From Solobacterium sp. (GTDB lineage Bacteria; Bacillota_I; Bacilli_A; Erysipelotrichales; Erysipelotrichaceae), in the NCBI GenBank assembly GCA_017512725.1, contig JAFWEW010000022.1, positions 1 through 64,000 of the forward strand: a stretch of 64,000 nt of DNA, read 5' to 3'. The position numbers and the translations under genes are program-made. Within the stretch, counting starts at the first letter, position 1. The number at the start of each line of letters is the position of its first letter. This document shows, piece after piece, positions 21,759-27,296 of the stretch. A model generated the notes under the pieces. It was not told the origin of the DNA, made no database searches, and worked only from the letters and a program-made list of their open reading frames with translations.

Positions 21759-21786
21759 AGAGCTGAATCTGCAGCTCTTTTTTCAT
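21758..21786 (+). terminator. Terminator of the diguanylate cyclase gene
   Basis: AAGAGCTG (21758-21765) pairs with CAGCTCTT (21772-21779), followed by a run of T. It overlaps the end of the convergent ArdC-like gene. Confidence 0.8.
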
Positions 21787-22625
21787 GCCCAAAGTGTCCG
21801 ATCCTCAAACCGGTCCGTTTTTGTTTCAAAACGCCGGAGAATGTCGAGGTCCCGAATCATGTCGGAGCTGGCACGATGGATCCGTTCCATGGATCCCCGC
21901 AGTTCCTTCAGTTCCGCAGAGGATGAAAAACCGGCAAGATACCCAAAGGAATAGGAACTGGTGTCGAGACCGTAATGACTGCAGATAATGTATGCAGTAC
22001 TTTCGGCTTCGATTTCTTTCTGGGCACGGGAAAGAGCTGCCGGTTCTTCTGTTTCACTGTGCAGCTTTGCATGAGCTACCTCATGGGCCAATGTTTTTAC
22101 GGTCTGAAGCTGTGTCATATCGGTGCGGAGAACGATTTCCTGTTTCTTCTTTGAGTAATAACCATGTGCATTCCCTTTGATCGCATCAAACCGGACCGGA
22201 ACCGGGGATATCTGTTCCAGCTGTTCAATAAATTCCTCATAATCTTCTACCGTCCCTTCCAGCCGGTCATCCATGTAGGACGGAAGCGGTTTGCCGATTG
22301 TCTGACTTACATCAAATACACTGATCATCCGGAAGCCAACCGATTGCGGTTCTTCCTCCTCTTCCTTCTTCTTTTTTCTTCGGATCGGAGCCAGTATCCG
22401 GATCCCCCGTTCCCCTTTTCGGACACTTCGTTCAAAGTTCCTGCGCCATGCCTGATAGCCGGCTACCAGTGTCGCATCCGGTCTCTGCTGATAAATCAGG
22501 ATACAGTTATTGAGACTGTAGCTGGGAAACCTGGACATTGTTTTCAGATAGTTCTGGTAGCGGTCCGACTGATAAACATCTCTGATTCCGTCTTCAATGG
22601 ACTGGTATATCTCGTAAAAGTTCAT
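21783..22625 (-). CDS. ArdC-like ssDNA-binding domain plus zincin metalloprotease
   Basis: Protein of 280 residues. The N-terminal third resembles the ArdC/LtrC N-terminal domain (LNNCILIYQQRPDATLVAGY, W.R..RKGERGI), known as an ssDNA-binding module of plasmids and conjugative elements. A Lys/Glu-rich hinge (RRKKKKEEEEEP) follows. The C-terminal part has the zinc motif TLAHEVAHAKLH with a downstream Glu-rich helix (EIEAESTAYI) as in ImmA/IrrE-type peptidases. ATG 22625 follows AGGAGGG by 7 bases. The usual mobile-element partners (relaxase, integrase, single-strand binding protein) are absent nearby, so it appears to be an orphan or domesticated copy. Confidence 0.82.
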   Translation of the reverse strand: MNFYEIYQSIEDGIRDVYQSDRYQNYLKTMSRFPSYSLNNCILIYQQRPDATLVAGYQAWRRNFERSVRKGERGIRILAPIRRKKKKEEEEEPQSVGFRMISVFDVSQTIGKPLPSYMDDRLEGTVEDYEEFIEQLEQISPVPVRFDAIKGNAHGYYSKKKQEIVLRTDMTQLQTVKTLAHEVAHAKLHSETEEPAALSRAQKEIEAESTAYIICSHYGLDTSSYSFGYLAGFSSSAELKELRGSMERIHRASSDMIRDLDILRRFETKTDRFEDRTLWA

Positions 22626-22697
22626 ATTGGAACCCTCCTGATATACTCTTAGTGTCCAAATCGAATATTCCTCCAAAATATACGAAACCGTTAAACG

Positions 22698-22733: not shown

Positions 22734-22991
22734 ATGGAACAGTTAGAATTCAAATTTGATACCCAGCTTCTGATCGACGGTCACGATCTCGATGAAGATG
22801 TGATCCACGATTATATTCTTGAGCATTTCAAGGGCGACTGTCTGCTGGTAGTCGGAGATGACACTCTGATCAAGATTCACTTTCACACCAATGAACCGTG
22901 GCAGATCCTCGAATACGGTCAGTCGATCGGTGATATCTATGATGTTGTCGTAGAAAACATGCAGAGACAGGAAGAAGGCTTAAAAGGTTAA
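22734..22991 (+). CDS. Small protein resembling the C-terminal domain of FakA/DAK2 kinases
   Basis: Protein of 85 residues with a good ribosome binding site (GGAG about 9 bases upstream). The stretch LLVVGDDTLIKIHFHTNEP followed by ILEYGQSIGDI and VVVENMQRQ matches the conserved end of fatty-acid kinase FakA-type proteins, where the core is GDSLVVVGDD..KVHVHT. Here it stands alone, without the N-terminal DAK2 kinase domain, from its own promoter to its own terminator. It could be a regulatory or lipid-carrier-binding subunit for a kinase encoded elsewhere; that is inference. The family assignment is from motif recall only. Confidence 0.65.
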   Translation: MEQLEFKFDTQLLIDGHDLDEDVIHDYILEHFKGDCLLVVGDDTLIKIHFHTNEPWQILEYGQSIGDIYDVVVENMQRQEEGLKG

Positions 22992-23050
22992 TATTTGATT
23001 CACCTTTCTGTCTGCTGATAAAACGAGCAGAAACTCTACTGAAGCGAAAT

Positions 23051-23094
23051 ACAGAGAATGACTCCGATTAAATCGGACAGCGTTCTCTGTTTTT
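23051..23094 (+). terminator. Terminator of the FakA C-terminal-like gene
   Basis: ACAGAGAA (23051-23058) pairs with TTCTCTGT (23083-23090) and CCGATT (23064-23069) with AATCGG (23071-23076). T-rich sequence follows. Confidence 0.8.
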
Positions 23095-23181
23095 CTTTTG
23101 CTCAGTACCAGAATGACAGGCAGGCATTACAAAGCACGGGACGGAATGATTCTTTACCACTGGAAACACCGCTTACAAAGG

Positions 23182-23226
23182 AAAAGACCTTCCGCAGTCA
23201 CATCGTTTGCAGAAGGCCTCGTCTTT
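23182..23226 (-). terminator. Terminator of the NRPS gene
   Basis: On the minus strand GCCTTC and GAAGG form the core stem and the structure is followed by TCTTTTCC, directly after the NRPS stop codon. The stem is interrupted, so efficiency is uncertain. Confidence 0.55.
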
Positions 23227-23237
23227 CAATTCATCGG

Positions 23238-26084
23238 TTATTCCGGAACCCGTTCCTCGAGCAGTTCATTGGCGGTGTGTTCCATCAAGGAAACAAACTG
23301 TTCTGCATGTTCTACCGTCAGATGTTTCATATCGTACTGGAACATGAAGACCATATTACCCTTTTCATGCGTGATTCTCAGATAAAGAATCGGTCTTGCT
23401 TTGCTGTGCTTGGTAAACTGATTTTCAAGTTCAATTTCTTTTCCAAGCTTGAGACCTTTTGAATCGGAATCAAACCAGTCTGAAATATAAGAAACCAGGA
23501 AGCTCGAATAATCATCCTCAATCGGATTCCGCTCGGGGAAGTTGTAATAGGCATAACGGATCATAGAGTACTGCTGATCGTTCATATCCTGGAAGAGTTC
23601 TTTCAGTTCGCGGCTCTTGGTGGTAATACCAATTGCGCCGATACTCATCCGCATTCCGGCAGGATTCTCATTTGGAGAACGGTTCTCCAGGAACGGGCAG
23701 ATAAAGGAAGATTTGCCATTGTACGATTCCTGCGCGAGACTCACGGCAAGATGGATGAAGCCCGCATAAGTGGAATCATATTTGGAAACCAGTGATTCAA
23801 TCTTACTGAGCGGAACAGCAAACTTCCGTGCATTCCCCAGTCCGATTTTATCAGTTTGATCTTTAAGAAGATTACGATTCCTGTTTTTTGGATCCAGTTT
23901 CTTTCGGTAATACTCGGATGCTTCATAGATTTTTTCGTCCGAAACAGGTACTGACTGATCAAGCAGATATGCAAAGTAGTAAGAAGGTCTGATCGTTCCG
24001 CCATTATAAAGGGTTTCAATATCCTGAACCAGAAGCGCCATACCGGCTCCGTCTGACAGTAAATGCGACATCTGGAAGAACAGATACTTATTGAACGTCG
24101 TCTTGATGAGACGGATTCGGATCAGAGGTTCTCCGTATTCAAACGGACGGATAAATGTCTTCTGAAGTTCCTTTACTTCCTCTTCCGACATTTTTTCAAT
24201 ATCTACAACTGGTGTGTTGGGATTGTATGTCTGAACAGGCCCTTCTTCGTCATTCTGCATGACTACATTAAATGTCGAATTACTGCGGATATACGCATTG
24301 AGGGTATCCTTCAGTTTGTCAATACTGATGAGCGGAGAGAGCTGATACGCCGCATTAAAATCGTGGGTGCCATTGTTAAGGCCAAACCATATTCTCTTCT
24401 GCTGGAAATCCAGAGGGAAGCGTTTGGTTTTCCCGATCTCCTCTTTTTCTTCGTCACTGAGACCGGAAGCGGATTCCGCTGTAAACAGATCCGAAATCTT
24501 CTCTGTTGTGCGGCCAATGTATATATGGCTGATATTCAGACCTGTAATGTCCAGTTTCGACAAGAGTTCCATTGCTTTCATGGAATTACCGCCAAGGTCA
24601 AAGAAATCATCTTTGATTCCAACACGTTCCAGTTTAAGAACCTGTGCCATGGCTTCGGTCAGTTTTTCTTCAAGTTCATTTCTTGGTGCAGCATATTCCG
24701 CAAAACGAACTGTTTCCGGAAGCTTGAAAACATTTCGATTCACTTTGCCGGTCGCAGAAATCGGTGCTTTCTCAATATGAATGAAATAAGAAGGAATCAT
24801 ATAGTACGGAAGAACATGTTTGAGTTTTTCACGTGCTTCCTCTTCGTCAATGGTGATCGGATCCGTATAGTAAAGAGCGACCACCCCTTCTTTCTCAAAT
24901 CCTTTGGCAGCACACCAGGAAAGTCCAAGTTCCTTTCTGCAGACGGTTTCAATTTCAGTCGGTTCAATTCGGTTGCCATTGATATTAAACATATCATCCA
25001 GACGCCCGACGATTGTGTAAAAACCAGCTTCATCCCTTCTTGCGATATCTCCGGTATGAACATACCCATCACGGAATATTTTGGATGCTTCTTCGGGGAG
25101 ATTGATATAACCTCTTACAAAGAAATTCTTAAAACAGATCTCTCCTTCTCCGGGTCCTTCAATCCGATTCCCTTCTTCATCTTCCAGATGCAAATCAATA
25201 CCCGGTACGACAGGCTTACCAGCCGGAGTACGATCATAGCGTTTTGTTACAGGCATTACCAGTAACGGGAATCCTGCTTCTGTCATGGAGTAATAATTCA
25301 GAAGTGAAGGTTTGCCGCCTTCATAATAAATGCCGTCTGCGTGTTCTCCACCCATAAGAACTTCTCTCAGGAATGGACTTGGATTGGTATACACACGGAT
25401 AAACGAAGGCGGAAGGAAGGTATCAACTATCTCATGTTCAATCAGGAACTTGTGCATCCCGCGGAGATCACGAAGCAGCCGCTCTGAAACAATATAGGTT
25501 GTACGTGCGACGCACATGCAGTTCAGTGCAAGCAGAATTGAGGCAACCGTATAAAACGGTGCTGTGAAACAGGTATGCAGTTCCTCATATTCATCCTGCG
25601 GAGGATAAAGAGATAAGCAGAAGTCGATGTTGCCCATTTCATGGAGAACACCTTTCGGTCTGCCGGTCGATCCGGAAGTATAAACAACAAATGCCGCATC
25701 ATGCGGATCCGGTTCGATGTATCCATCATATGGCTGCTGTTCCGCCTGAATCGTTTTGTAAGTTTCTTCATCGATCTCACACTTCTGATTCAGTTCACTG
25801 CGGATAAACGCGATTCTCTCCGGCGGATAAGAACTGTCGATGTTGCAGAAAGCACATCCGGCTCTTAATACACCCAGAATGGAAGCCATGGAAGAAACGC
25901 TTCTGGGAAGCACGATCAGACAGATATCATCTTTTCCATACCCCTCGGCTTTCAGCCAGGATGTAATCCTGCCGGACTCCTCCCATAATTCTCTGTATGT
26001 CAGTGCACGATTATCATCCTGAAACGCAATTCGGTCGGGATACTTTATGCAGTTGTTGCTGATACGATCTAATAACTGGCTCAT
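23238..26084 (-). CDS. Single-module nonribosomal peptide synthetase, A-T-C order
   Basis: Protein of 948 residues. The adenylation domain (about 1-455) has A3 YTSGSTGRPKG (135-145), A5 NYYSMTEAG, A7 YVHTGD, A8 GRLDDMFNINGNRIE and the A10 Lys in ISATGKVNR. The carrier domain has FFDLGGNSMKAM with the pantetheinyl Ser at about 501. The condensation domain (about 555-948) has SHLLSDG: the catalytic second His of HHxxxDG is kept (about 674) and the first is Ser. There is no thioesterase, reductase, epimerase or second module. At the usual position of Asp235 the alignment suggests Thr (CFTAPFYT), so the substrate may not be a normal alpha-amino acid. ATG 26084 has an AAGGGA site. No phosphopantetheinyl transferase is in the window. 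The product is unknown. Confidence 0.85.
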   Translation of the reverse strand: MSQLLDRISNNCIKYPDRIAFQDDNRALTYRELWEESGRITSWLKAEGYGKDDICLIVLPRSVSSMASILGVLRAGCAFCNIDSSYPPERIAFIRSELNQKCEIDEETYKTIQAEQQPYDGYIEPDPHDAAFVVYTSGSTGRPKGVLHEMGNIDFCLSLYPPQDEYEELHTCFTAPFYTVASILLALNCMCVARTTYIVSERLLRDLRGMHKFLIEHEIVDTFLPPSFIRVYTNPSPFLREVLMGGEHADGIYYEGGKPSLLNYYSMTEAGFPLLVMPVTKRYDRTPAGKPVVPGIDLHLEDEEGNRIEGPGEGEICFKNFFVRGYINLPEEASKIFRDGYVHTGDIARRDEAGFYTIVGRLDDMFNINGNRIEPTEIETVCRKELGLSWCAAKGFEKEGVVALYYTDPITIDEEEAREKLKHVLPYYMIPSYFIHIEKAPISATGKVNRNVFKLPETVRFAEYAAPRNELEEKLTEAMAQVLKLERVGIKDDFFDLGGNSMKAMELLSKLDITGLNISHIYIGRTTEKISDLFTAESASGLSDEEKEEIGKTKRFPLDFQQKRIWFGLNNGTHDFNAAYQLSPLISIDKLKDTLNAYIRSNSTFNVVMQNDEEGPVQTYNPNTPVVDIEKMSEEEVKELQKTFIRPFEYGEPLIRIRLIKTTFNKYLFFQMSHLLSDGAGMALLVQDIETLYNGGTIRPSYYFAYLLDQSVPVSDEKIYEASEYYRKKLDPKNRNRNLLKDQTDKIGLGNARKFAVPLSKIESLVSKYDSTYAGFIHLAVSLAQESYNGKSSFICPFLENRSPNENPAGMRMSIGAIGITTKSRELKELFQDMNDQQYSMIRYAYYNFPERNPIEDDYSSFLVSYISDWFDSDSKGLKLGKEIELENQFTKHSKARPILYLRITHEKGNMVFMFQYDMKHLTVEHAEQFVSLMEHTANELLEERVPE

Positions 26085-26164
26085 GTACTTCCCTTTCTTC
26101 AAAACATTTGGAAAAAATTCTATTTGATTATACCTTGAAATATTATTGATCTATAACAACCTGA

Positions 26165-26177
26165 CAACGTAACGTTG
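26165..26177. promoter_or_regulatory. Palindrome upstream of the NRPS gene
   Basis: CAACGTAACGTTG is a perfect 6-base inverted repeat around one A, about 80 bases upstream of the NRPS start. It could be an operator. The minus strand between it and the gene contains TATAAT within GGTATAATCAA. Confidence 0.35.
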
Positions 26178-26279
26178 ACAATACCGTGAATATGCTCTCT
26201 AAAACACGTAACCAGTTAATACGTTTAGTGGTTTTTGTATCTGTTTTTGACATCATATATCATGCGTTCATGAATTCAT

Positions 26280-26319
26280 AAAAAAGGCCGCAGACCACTT
26301 AATGAAGCAGACTGCAGCC
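26280..26319 (-). terminator. Terminator of the CPBP gene
   Basis: GGCCGCAG (26286-26293) pairs with CTGCAGCC (26312-26319) including one G-U pair. On the minus strand a run of T follows. The remaining intergenic DNA up to the NRPS promoter holds no other recognisable element. Confidence 0.75.
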
Positions 26320-26366
26320 ATTATCAGTATCTTGAGCTGTCAACGATGGGATGAAGCTCCGATGAT

Positions 26367-27296
26367 TTAGAGTTGCAGGGACAGCACGACGTTGACAATA
26401 AAGATCACGATACAGATAACAATTGAGAACGAAGTCAGCAGGATTTTCCAGAGTTTCGGGTCCGTTGCGCCATAACGCACCATTCCGGTATCGACCCGTT
26501 TCTGGAAGATAAACAGACCTGCGAATATATAAATCAGAACAATAAACAATGTAATCAGCCAGAGATAATTTCCCGGGATGACATTAAGTCCCCACAGGAA
26601 CAGCGACAGTGCGATATGAACAACAATAGCCGGCTGAATCGAATGATAACGCAGTGTAATCAGTGACAGATACCATCCAACGACAAATGCGGGCAGTGCA
26701 TCCACCAGATTGGCCTGGGCGATCGCATACAGGAATGCAGAACCGATTACACCGAAGTAACGGCCGTAATGTCCAAGCTGACGCTGTATGATGCCACGGA
26801 AGATATATTCATCACAGATCGGCTTGATGATTACAAAGTACGCGACATATACAAGATTCTTCAGAATTGTCTCATTGGTTGAAAAATCACCGAGGTAAGG
26901 ATATTCCGCTGCCTGGGTATGGAAAAAAAAGTAAAAGAGCGTTGATACGGACGTAACCAGAAGATTCAGGCCGATCCCGATACAGATCAGGGCAAGCACC
27001 CGGTCGATCCGCAGTCTTGGATTCTTCAGATAATCGCGGATATCAAGATGTAAGAACAGCGAAGAGATCGTAAACGGCACAAGCGTCACAAACAACAGCA
27101 AAATGATGGATGCGTAAAGACTGGCCAGTTCCGTATCCATCCCGTTCAGCACATTCGGGAAATAACGCTCTGTATAGATCAGAGCGTACTTAACTGCGAC
27201 ACTGAGTAATACGTATATCAGCAGCGATCTCCCAAAGTGATTGATCTGCTTTTTCGCCTGTCTGGTCGTAATGACAACAGGCGTACTTGTGCTCAT
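26367..27296 (-). CDS. CPBP (Abi)-family intramembrane protein with altered catalytic motifs
   Basis: Polytopic membrane protein of 309 residues with about eight hydrophobic segments. The CPBP core is recognisable by ICDEYIFRGIIQRQ, where the usual EExxxR reads DExxxR, and by SAFLYAIAQAN, where the usual FxxxH motif has Gln in place of His. The third motif AIVVHIALS keeps its His, but the usual Asn is replaced by Ser. Two of the glutamate/histidine pairs of active family members are therefore changed, and proteolysis is doubtful. The family includes CAAX proteases and bacteriocin self-immunity proteins. It lies next to the NRPS gene but is transcribed separately. Confidence 0.8.
   Translation of the reverse strand: MSTSTPVVITTRQAKKQINHFGRSLLIYVLLSVAVKYALIYTERYFPNVLNGMDTELASLYASIILLLFVTLVPFTISSLFLHLDIRDYLKNPRLRIDRVLALICIGIGLNLLVTSVSTLFYFFFHTQAAEYPYLGDFSTNETILKNLVYVAYFVIIKPICDEYIFRGIIQRQLGHYGRYFGVIGSAFLYAIAQANLVDALPAFVVGWYLSLITLRYHSIQPAIVVHIALSLFLWGLNVIPGNYLWLITLFIVLIYIFAGLFIFQKRVDTGMVRYGATDPKLWKILLTSFSIVICIVIFIVNVVLSLQL

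Follow-up and report, generated by a model that had tools for sequence, protein, structure and literature searches.

The window examined here, a 64,000-nucleotide stretch of a Solobacterium sp. contig (JAFWEW010000022.1, positions 1 to 64,000), contains a gene that reads as a nonribosomal peptide synthetase with one adenylation (A), one carrier (T) and one condensation (C) domain. An intriguing question is whether such a gene is a fragment of a larger synthetase or an enzyme in its own right and, if the latter, which acid it activates, which acceptor it uses and how its product is released.

A single A-T-C gene and its genomic site

The gene and its domains were located as follows.

23238..26084, minus strand: solo A-T-C synthetase gene, 948 aa plus stop (open reading frame and translation, Pfam, sister ortholog)
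24723..26084, minus strand: adenylation domain, aa 1-454 (core motif YTSGSTGRPKG, Lys447, pocket code VALFLGYFPK)
24468..24686, minus strand: carrier (T) domain, aa 467-539 (attachment Ser501 in LGGNS; Pfam; the model helix begins at 501)
23241..24437, minus strand: condensation domain, aa 550-948 (SHLLSDG, His674, Asp678; Pfam, AlphaFold, Foldseek)

The ORF list and translation showed an intact reading frame running from 26084 to 23238. Its ATG lies at 26084 and is preceded by AAAGGGAAG, while an in-frame TTG 18 nt upstream of the ATG is a possible alternative start. Pfam assigned AMP-binding to residues 11-321 (E 2e-45), PP-binding to 473-511 (8e-07) and Condensation to 555-851 (3e-16), and returned no domain after the last of these; thioesterase and reductase were both absent, and the ORF stops at that point. 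The first-pass annotation, which had described a single-gene A-T-C synthetase without a release domain, was therefore correct on this point. It had also called the arrangement the reverse of a normal module. The order itself was confirmed, but to call it a reversal goes too far: shifting the point at which C-A-T is cut gives A-T-C, which is termed a module in the fungal literature (PMC2823734). The unusual feature of this synthetase is that it stands alone, rather than its domain order.

It was noted that the core motifs of the A domain are all intact (YTSGSTGRPKG, HTGD, GRLDD and the C-terminal Lys447) and that the carrier serine is present as Ser501 in GGNS. The C-terminal C domain carries S673-H674-LLS-D678-G679, the SHLLSDG previously reported in place of HHxxxDG, with the catalytic second His and the Asp both present. 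This domain is compact (399 aa) but has a complete C fold, with Foldseek TM scores of 0.59-0.74 to solved C, Cy and E domains and a probability of 1.00 to C domains. Each domain was modelled confidently by AlphaFold (mean pLDDT 80 for the whole protein, 81 for the C domain alone), and the relative placement of the domains is without confidence (pTM 0.47). No membrane part was seen in the domain models.

The gene is the only one in an insert between two conserved neighbours.

22989..26366, no strand: insert of about 3.3 kb holding only this gene (empty-site comparison)
26367..27296, minus strand: CPBP (Rce1-like) membrane protease (core synteny; found in relatives lacking the synthetase)
22734..22988, plus strand: 85-aa free-standing FakA-like middle domain (core synteny)

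The same site measures only 50 to 98 nt in three relatives (G207, G204, G182) and is occupied by unrelated genes instead in two others (G164, G186). The GC content of the synthetase is 0.444 compared to 0.503 +/- 0.019, the lowest among the 45 window ORFs of at least 200 aa, and its GC3 is likewise lower (0.453 compared to 0.559 +/- 0.039 for the same ORFs). The AT-richness that had been suspected from sampled lines is thus borne out, and so is the hint of transfer drawn from it: the gene was probably acquired, given its AT-richness and the relatives whose sites lack it. Within the genus 2 of 70 genomes carry it, which fits a gain, although loss elsewhere may be the alternative. Transposase genes adjoin the G266 copy described below; around the insert in the window, neither insertion-sequence ends nor long repeats were present. 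Promoter and terminator scans gave matches no commoner than in shuffled sequence, and an Rfam scan detected tRNA only.

Two features of the downstream side were also recorded. The 85-aa FakA-like domain is 90-99% identical in five relatives and lacks an attached kinase part. Further on, the conserved gene at 21783-22634 (minus strand) matches an ArdC N-terminal domain plus an IrrE-like metallopeptidase and, next to a diguanylate cyclase gene, is part of the core synteny.

Homologues, selection and the adenylation pocket

We searched 316 genomes of the order Erysipelotrichales with profiles; scoring in the order, class and phylum searches was limited to two candidates per genome, and the genomes are mostly drafts. 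Stand-alone A-T-C orthologs with unchanged ends were found in three genera and two families of the order. Those in another genus of the family are 70% (G266) and 42% (G274) identical to the window protein, and one from a different family (G239) is 30% identical. A sister MAG (G153, locus L035, Solobacterium-like) carries an ortholog that is 94% identical over 757 aa, where a contig end cuts it, behind the same upstream neighbours as the window gene; a single scan of the genome contigs found no further copies beyond this one. No further solo A-T-C genes were encountered in the class and phylum searches, at two or fewer scored candidates per genome.

From the comparison with the sister genome, the synthetase is under purifying selection, with a dN/dS of 0.067 overall (0.035 in A, 0.13 in T, 0.068 in C); the values for neighbouring genes were 0.026 (EF-G-like) and 0.046 (CPBP). 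Third-position divergence between the two genes (window 23241-26084, L035:5769-8039) is near 0.15 in the A domain and reaches about 0.5 in the C domain, a gradient that suggests either recombination, with a possible exchange of the C part, or divergence that is uneven over the length of the gene.

It had been proposed that homologues might reveal the gene to be a fragment of a larger synthetase. The search returned stand-alone copies, and we reject a fragment on the grounds that the ends are the same in three genera and that core DNA is conserved directly downstream. A related reading takes the gene for what is left, inactive and in decay, of a larger synthetase. C-A-T-C-A-T enzymes of the class do include an A-T-C internally, from the same superfamily, so the core is common to both, and one relative, the 58% identical copy of G284 (L118:7420-10260, minus strand), is decaying, having lost the A-domain loop (YTSGYAG) and the catalytic His of the C motif (SSLLSDD). 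The window gene differs in its low dN/dS, intact signatures, shared ends and a pocket identical to those of its relatives, and the conserved core DNA that begins downstream at 22988 holds no lost module; we regard decay as very improbable here. In the L118 copy the ORF is still open despite the lost His, and a CPBP protease gene lies directly downstream.

We then assessed the A-domain pocket, for which one residue is central.

25545..25547, minus strand: Val180, equivalent of Asp235 of gramicidin synthetase (38-row alignment; alignment to LgrA)

The first-pass annotation had read Thr at this position. The loss of Asp stands but the residue does not: in the 38-row alignment Thr179 aligns with the Phe of the F-D motif and Val180 with its Asp, and the alignment to LgrA agrees on Val180. 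No Asp or Glu occurs anywhere in this stretch, so the alignment, which had been set beforehand as a refuting test, did not restore Asp235. Its rows comprise the window domain and 37 others; of the 38, 28 are from multimodular synthetases of the order and class and 10, the window domain included, are solo. Asp occupies position 235 in 28/28 multimodular A domains compared to 0/10 solo A-T-C enzymes, which have Val, Ala or Cys there. Because the solo A domains group together on one side of a tree branch (support 95/98), the ten losses are not independent events; in this tree the L064 copy and the copy on contig C16 sit on long branches.

The pocket code VALFLGYFPK is identical in the window, G266 and the far more diverged G274 protein, and G239 has VAMFIGLFIK. 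The window code residues are hydrophobic except for Tyr, and a hydrophobic pocket without Asp argues for an acid lacking an alpha-amine; from Val180 we infer that alpha-amine recognition has been lost. Val is usual at position 235 in A domains for alpha-keto acids (PMC5238615), and the aliphatic residue there that characterizes them (PMC5238615, PMC10949194) is present as Val180. CesA, CesB and PksJ (PMC5238615) share with the window enzyme this Val, Gly at 301 and the C-terminal Lys. Their remaining code, VGMWNG-x-S-x-K, is not matched by VALFLGYFPK, and the synthetase here has no ketoreductase domain. An alpha-keto acid as the definite substrate was accordingly not accepted, since agreement with their code is limited to the first position and two more.

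Condensation domains and the proposed reaction

We examined where condensation domains occur across the genomes. In four genomes that are 87 to 95% complete (G193, G274, G239, G135) the solo A-T-C is the only condensation domain found, and the genome of the window itself (G000) has three, each within a solo A-T-C gene; these three genes lie on separate contigs and differ in pocket code. Since solo A-T-C genes hold all the condensation domains found in these genomes, there is no assembly line for them to feed or follow, and no condensing partner was found for the orthologs of G274 and G239 in those genomes. G266 and G284 each have one extra condensation gene, free-standing and of 454 and 473 residues, and G184 carries a C-A-T-C-A-T-R enzyme. 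The free-standing genes (G266:C167:10157-11488 and G284:C48:1424-2746), the first of which shares its contig with an Sfp-sized transferase, are possible OaaC-type fatty-acid-amide enzymes.

We lean towards the synthetase being a self-contained amide (or ester) synthetase that couples a hydrophobic acid, one lacking an alpha-amine, to an unbound small molecule as acceptor. The A domain would adenylate a hydrophobic carboxylic acid lacking the alpha-amino group, with alpha-keto, alpha-hydroxy, branched-chain and aryl-alkanoic acids as candidate classes. Once the acyl group had been loaded onto the phosphopantetheine of the T domain at Ser501, the C domain would join it from this thioester to an acceptor that diffuses freely, a small molecule and most likely an amine. 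The product, an amide or ester, would be freed by the condensation itself, so that a thioesterase would not be needed. The substrate class, the free acceptor and release by condensation are all what we infer. A free acceptor is the simplest route to turnover for a partnerless A-T-C, although the acceptor may instead be held by a separate carrier protein.

Priming of the T domain is not assured, because the only phosphopantetheinyl transferase found in G000 is AcpS-sized. The same holds for G239, and an Sfp-type transferase gene adjoins the A-T-C copy in G274. Either AcpS primes the T domains or another transferase was missed.

The acceptor may also vary among the relatives. The C-domain tree puts the window copy on a branch that is long and isolated, separate from the C domains of L119 and L120, its relatives by A domain; the reactions may therefore not be the same. 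The window, G266 and G284 C domains lie together on a long branch apart from those of G274 and G239, and the two sets of enzymes may use different acceptors. The solo C domains may or may not share a single origin (AU p 0.21).

We weighed three other reactions. One would make the protein a detached loading unit working in trans, whose acyl group is condensed with an aminoacyl partner carried by a separate T domain or by a paralogous A-T-C. AmbB sets a precedent, as it loads its own T domain and condenses with the carrier of another protein, AmbE (PMC8968710); G000 has its three solo genes with different codes, and the nearest named NCBIfam model is the dimodular synthetase AusA, though the score is far under its cut-off. 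However, the G274 and G239 relatives reside in genomes without any other condensation domain, and the search showed no close counterparts of the other two G000 genes in G266, G274 and G284, so the three do not travel together by inheritance. The Asp is missing from all three G000 pockets, and therefore none should load an ordinary acceptor amino acid. We consider an in-trans role unlikely.

In a second, the recipient of the acyl group would be large, for example a wall polymer, teichoic acid, lipid or tRNA, and not a diffusible amine. DltA-type systems load wall polymers through a carrier, and the DltA family model does hit the A domain here (E 3e-37), with a score far short of its cut-off. 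Against this reading, the modelled domains include no membrane part, the ortholog neighbourhoods have no wall or lipid genes in common, and a general wall role is excluded by the absence of the gene from nearly all relatives in the genus; this seems slightly less probable again than action in trans. The third would have the enzyme polymerise or dimerise its own substrate, with a loaded acid that bears a distal amine or hydroxyl and plays donor as well as acceptor, in the manner of epsilon-poly-lysine synthase. The A-T plus C-like order recalls that enzyme, whose structure 7wew was among those matched by sequence, and the loss of Asp235 would suit a distal rather than an alpha amine. The synthetase nevertheless has only one C domain and no membrane part, and its code offers nothing obvious for a distal charged group, being hydrophobic save for Tyr, which makes self-condensation improbable. 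A freely diffusing, soluble acceptor is favoured, by analogy with the systems compared below and from the lack of a membrane part.

On a broader scale, and more tentatively, the solo genes might form a one-protein, cluster-free synthetase family in gut Erysipelotrichales that makes N-acyl amides from hydrophobic acids lacking the alpha-amine, with different pockets for different acids. The solo A-T-C genes of G239 and G135 overlap alpha/beta-hydrolase genes, and overlap with such genes or with a MATE exporter gene hints at small diffusible products; the window gene has no overlapping partner of this kind and no co-inherited partner gene.

Several other synthetase genes were recorded. On contig C16 of the window's own genome, L052:7909-11085 (minus strand) is a solo A-T-T-C gene that overlaps a MATE exporter gene, and its tandem carriers are nearly identical, reflecting either a recent duplication or an assembly artefact. 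Another solo A-T-C lineage, comprising L051:7937-11269 (minus strand) and L054:3794-6943 (plus strand), is extended at the N-terminus (by about 150 aa in L051) with sequence matching no Pfam family, and has a C motif of HHIIFDH or HHIITDA; each is divergently paired with a small P-loop kinase-like gene. Four loci of one genus (L058, L059, L062, L063) contain large dimodular synthetase genes followed by the same three genes, of about 624, 512 and 553 aa, the middle one resembling a response regulator.

Comparison with known systems

A close likeness in logic is to OaaA/OaaACP/OaaC, which make fatty acid amides in gut Clostridia (Coprococcus eutactus) with three separate proteins (PMC13142362). 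There the acid is activated and held on a carrier, and a C domain joins it to a free small amine without a thioesterase, as is predicted here, and both systems occur in gut Firmicutes. The known system has a free-standing C domain with separate A and ACP genes, whereas the window gene encodes one polypeptide. The motif of OaaC is (D/H)HxxxD(S/A/G) (PMC13142362) and that of the window enzyme is SHxxxDG, which retains the second His and the Asp and has Ser673 in place of the Asp/His before the catalytic His. The A domain also scores best as an amino-acid type, unlike OaaA, and its bulky code residues suggest a short acid. We did not accept membership of the OaaC class, as both motif and architecture differ.

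VibH, SchH and the C13 domain of glidonin are C domains that use free amines (PMC10587159). In VibE/VibB/VibH, SchH and the terminal C domain of glidonin, this use frees the product (PMC10587159), as is proposed here. VibH and SchH are free-standing, however, and the glidonin domain ends a long multimodular line, whereas here the donor A-T is fused and no line exists. AmbB of Pseudomonas (PMC8968710) likewise has A, T and C domains, and its C domain acts on the group that its own protein loads, but it loads L-Ala and passes it to the AmbE carrier within a cluster; the window enzyme has lost Asp235, and a partner synthetase was not found.

The C-A-T-C-A-T dimodular synthetases (L056, L143-L146, L149) contain the internal A-T-C of the same superfamily. 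They retain Asp235, possess a second module and have A domains that branch outside the solo group (95/98), and L056 ends in a reductase-type domain. AusA-type dipeptide aldehyde synthetases have a second A-T module and a terminal reductase, both absent here, where the ORF ends after the C domain. Epsilon-poly-lysine synthase has a membrane part and several C-like domains, compared to one C domain and no modelled membrane part in the window enzyme.

If the favoured reading is true, a complete small molecule would come from one gene, and the product could be found by expressing just this gene in a laboratory E. coli strain with an Sfp-type transferase. Gut fatty acid amides acting on host receptors are already known through the three-protein version; with a version that is fused and needs no cluster, the search for such amides would become wider and gain a new, genetically minimal source of them in the microbiome. 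The family would have been missed because a lone A-T-C gene resembles a fragment, and the loss of Asp235 (10/10 solo, 0/28 multimodular) offers a simple rule for finding more. On our best reading, by analogy, the logic would be that already known from the separate proteins of OaaA/ACP/OaaC and VibE/B/H, and what would be new is its fused, stand-alone form.
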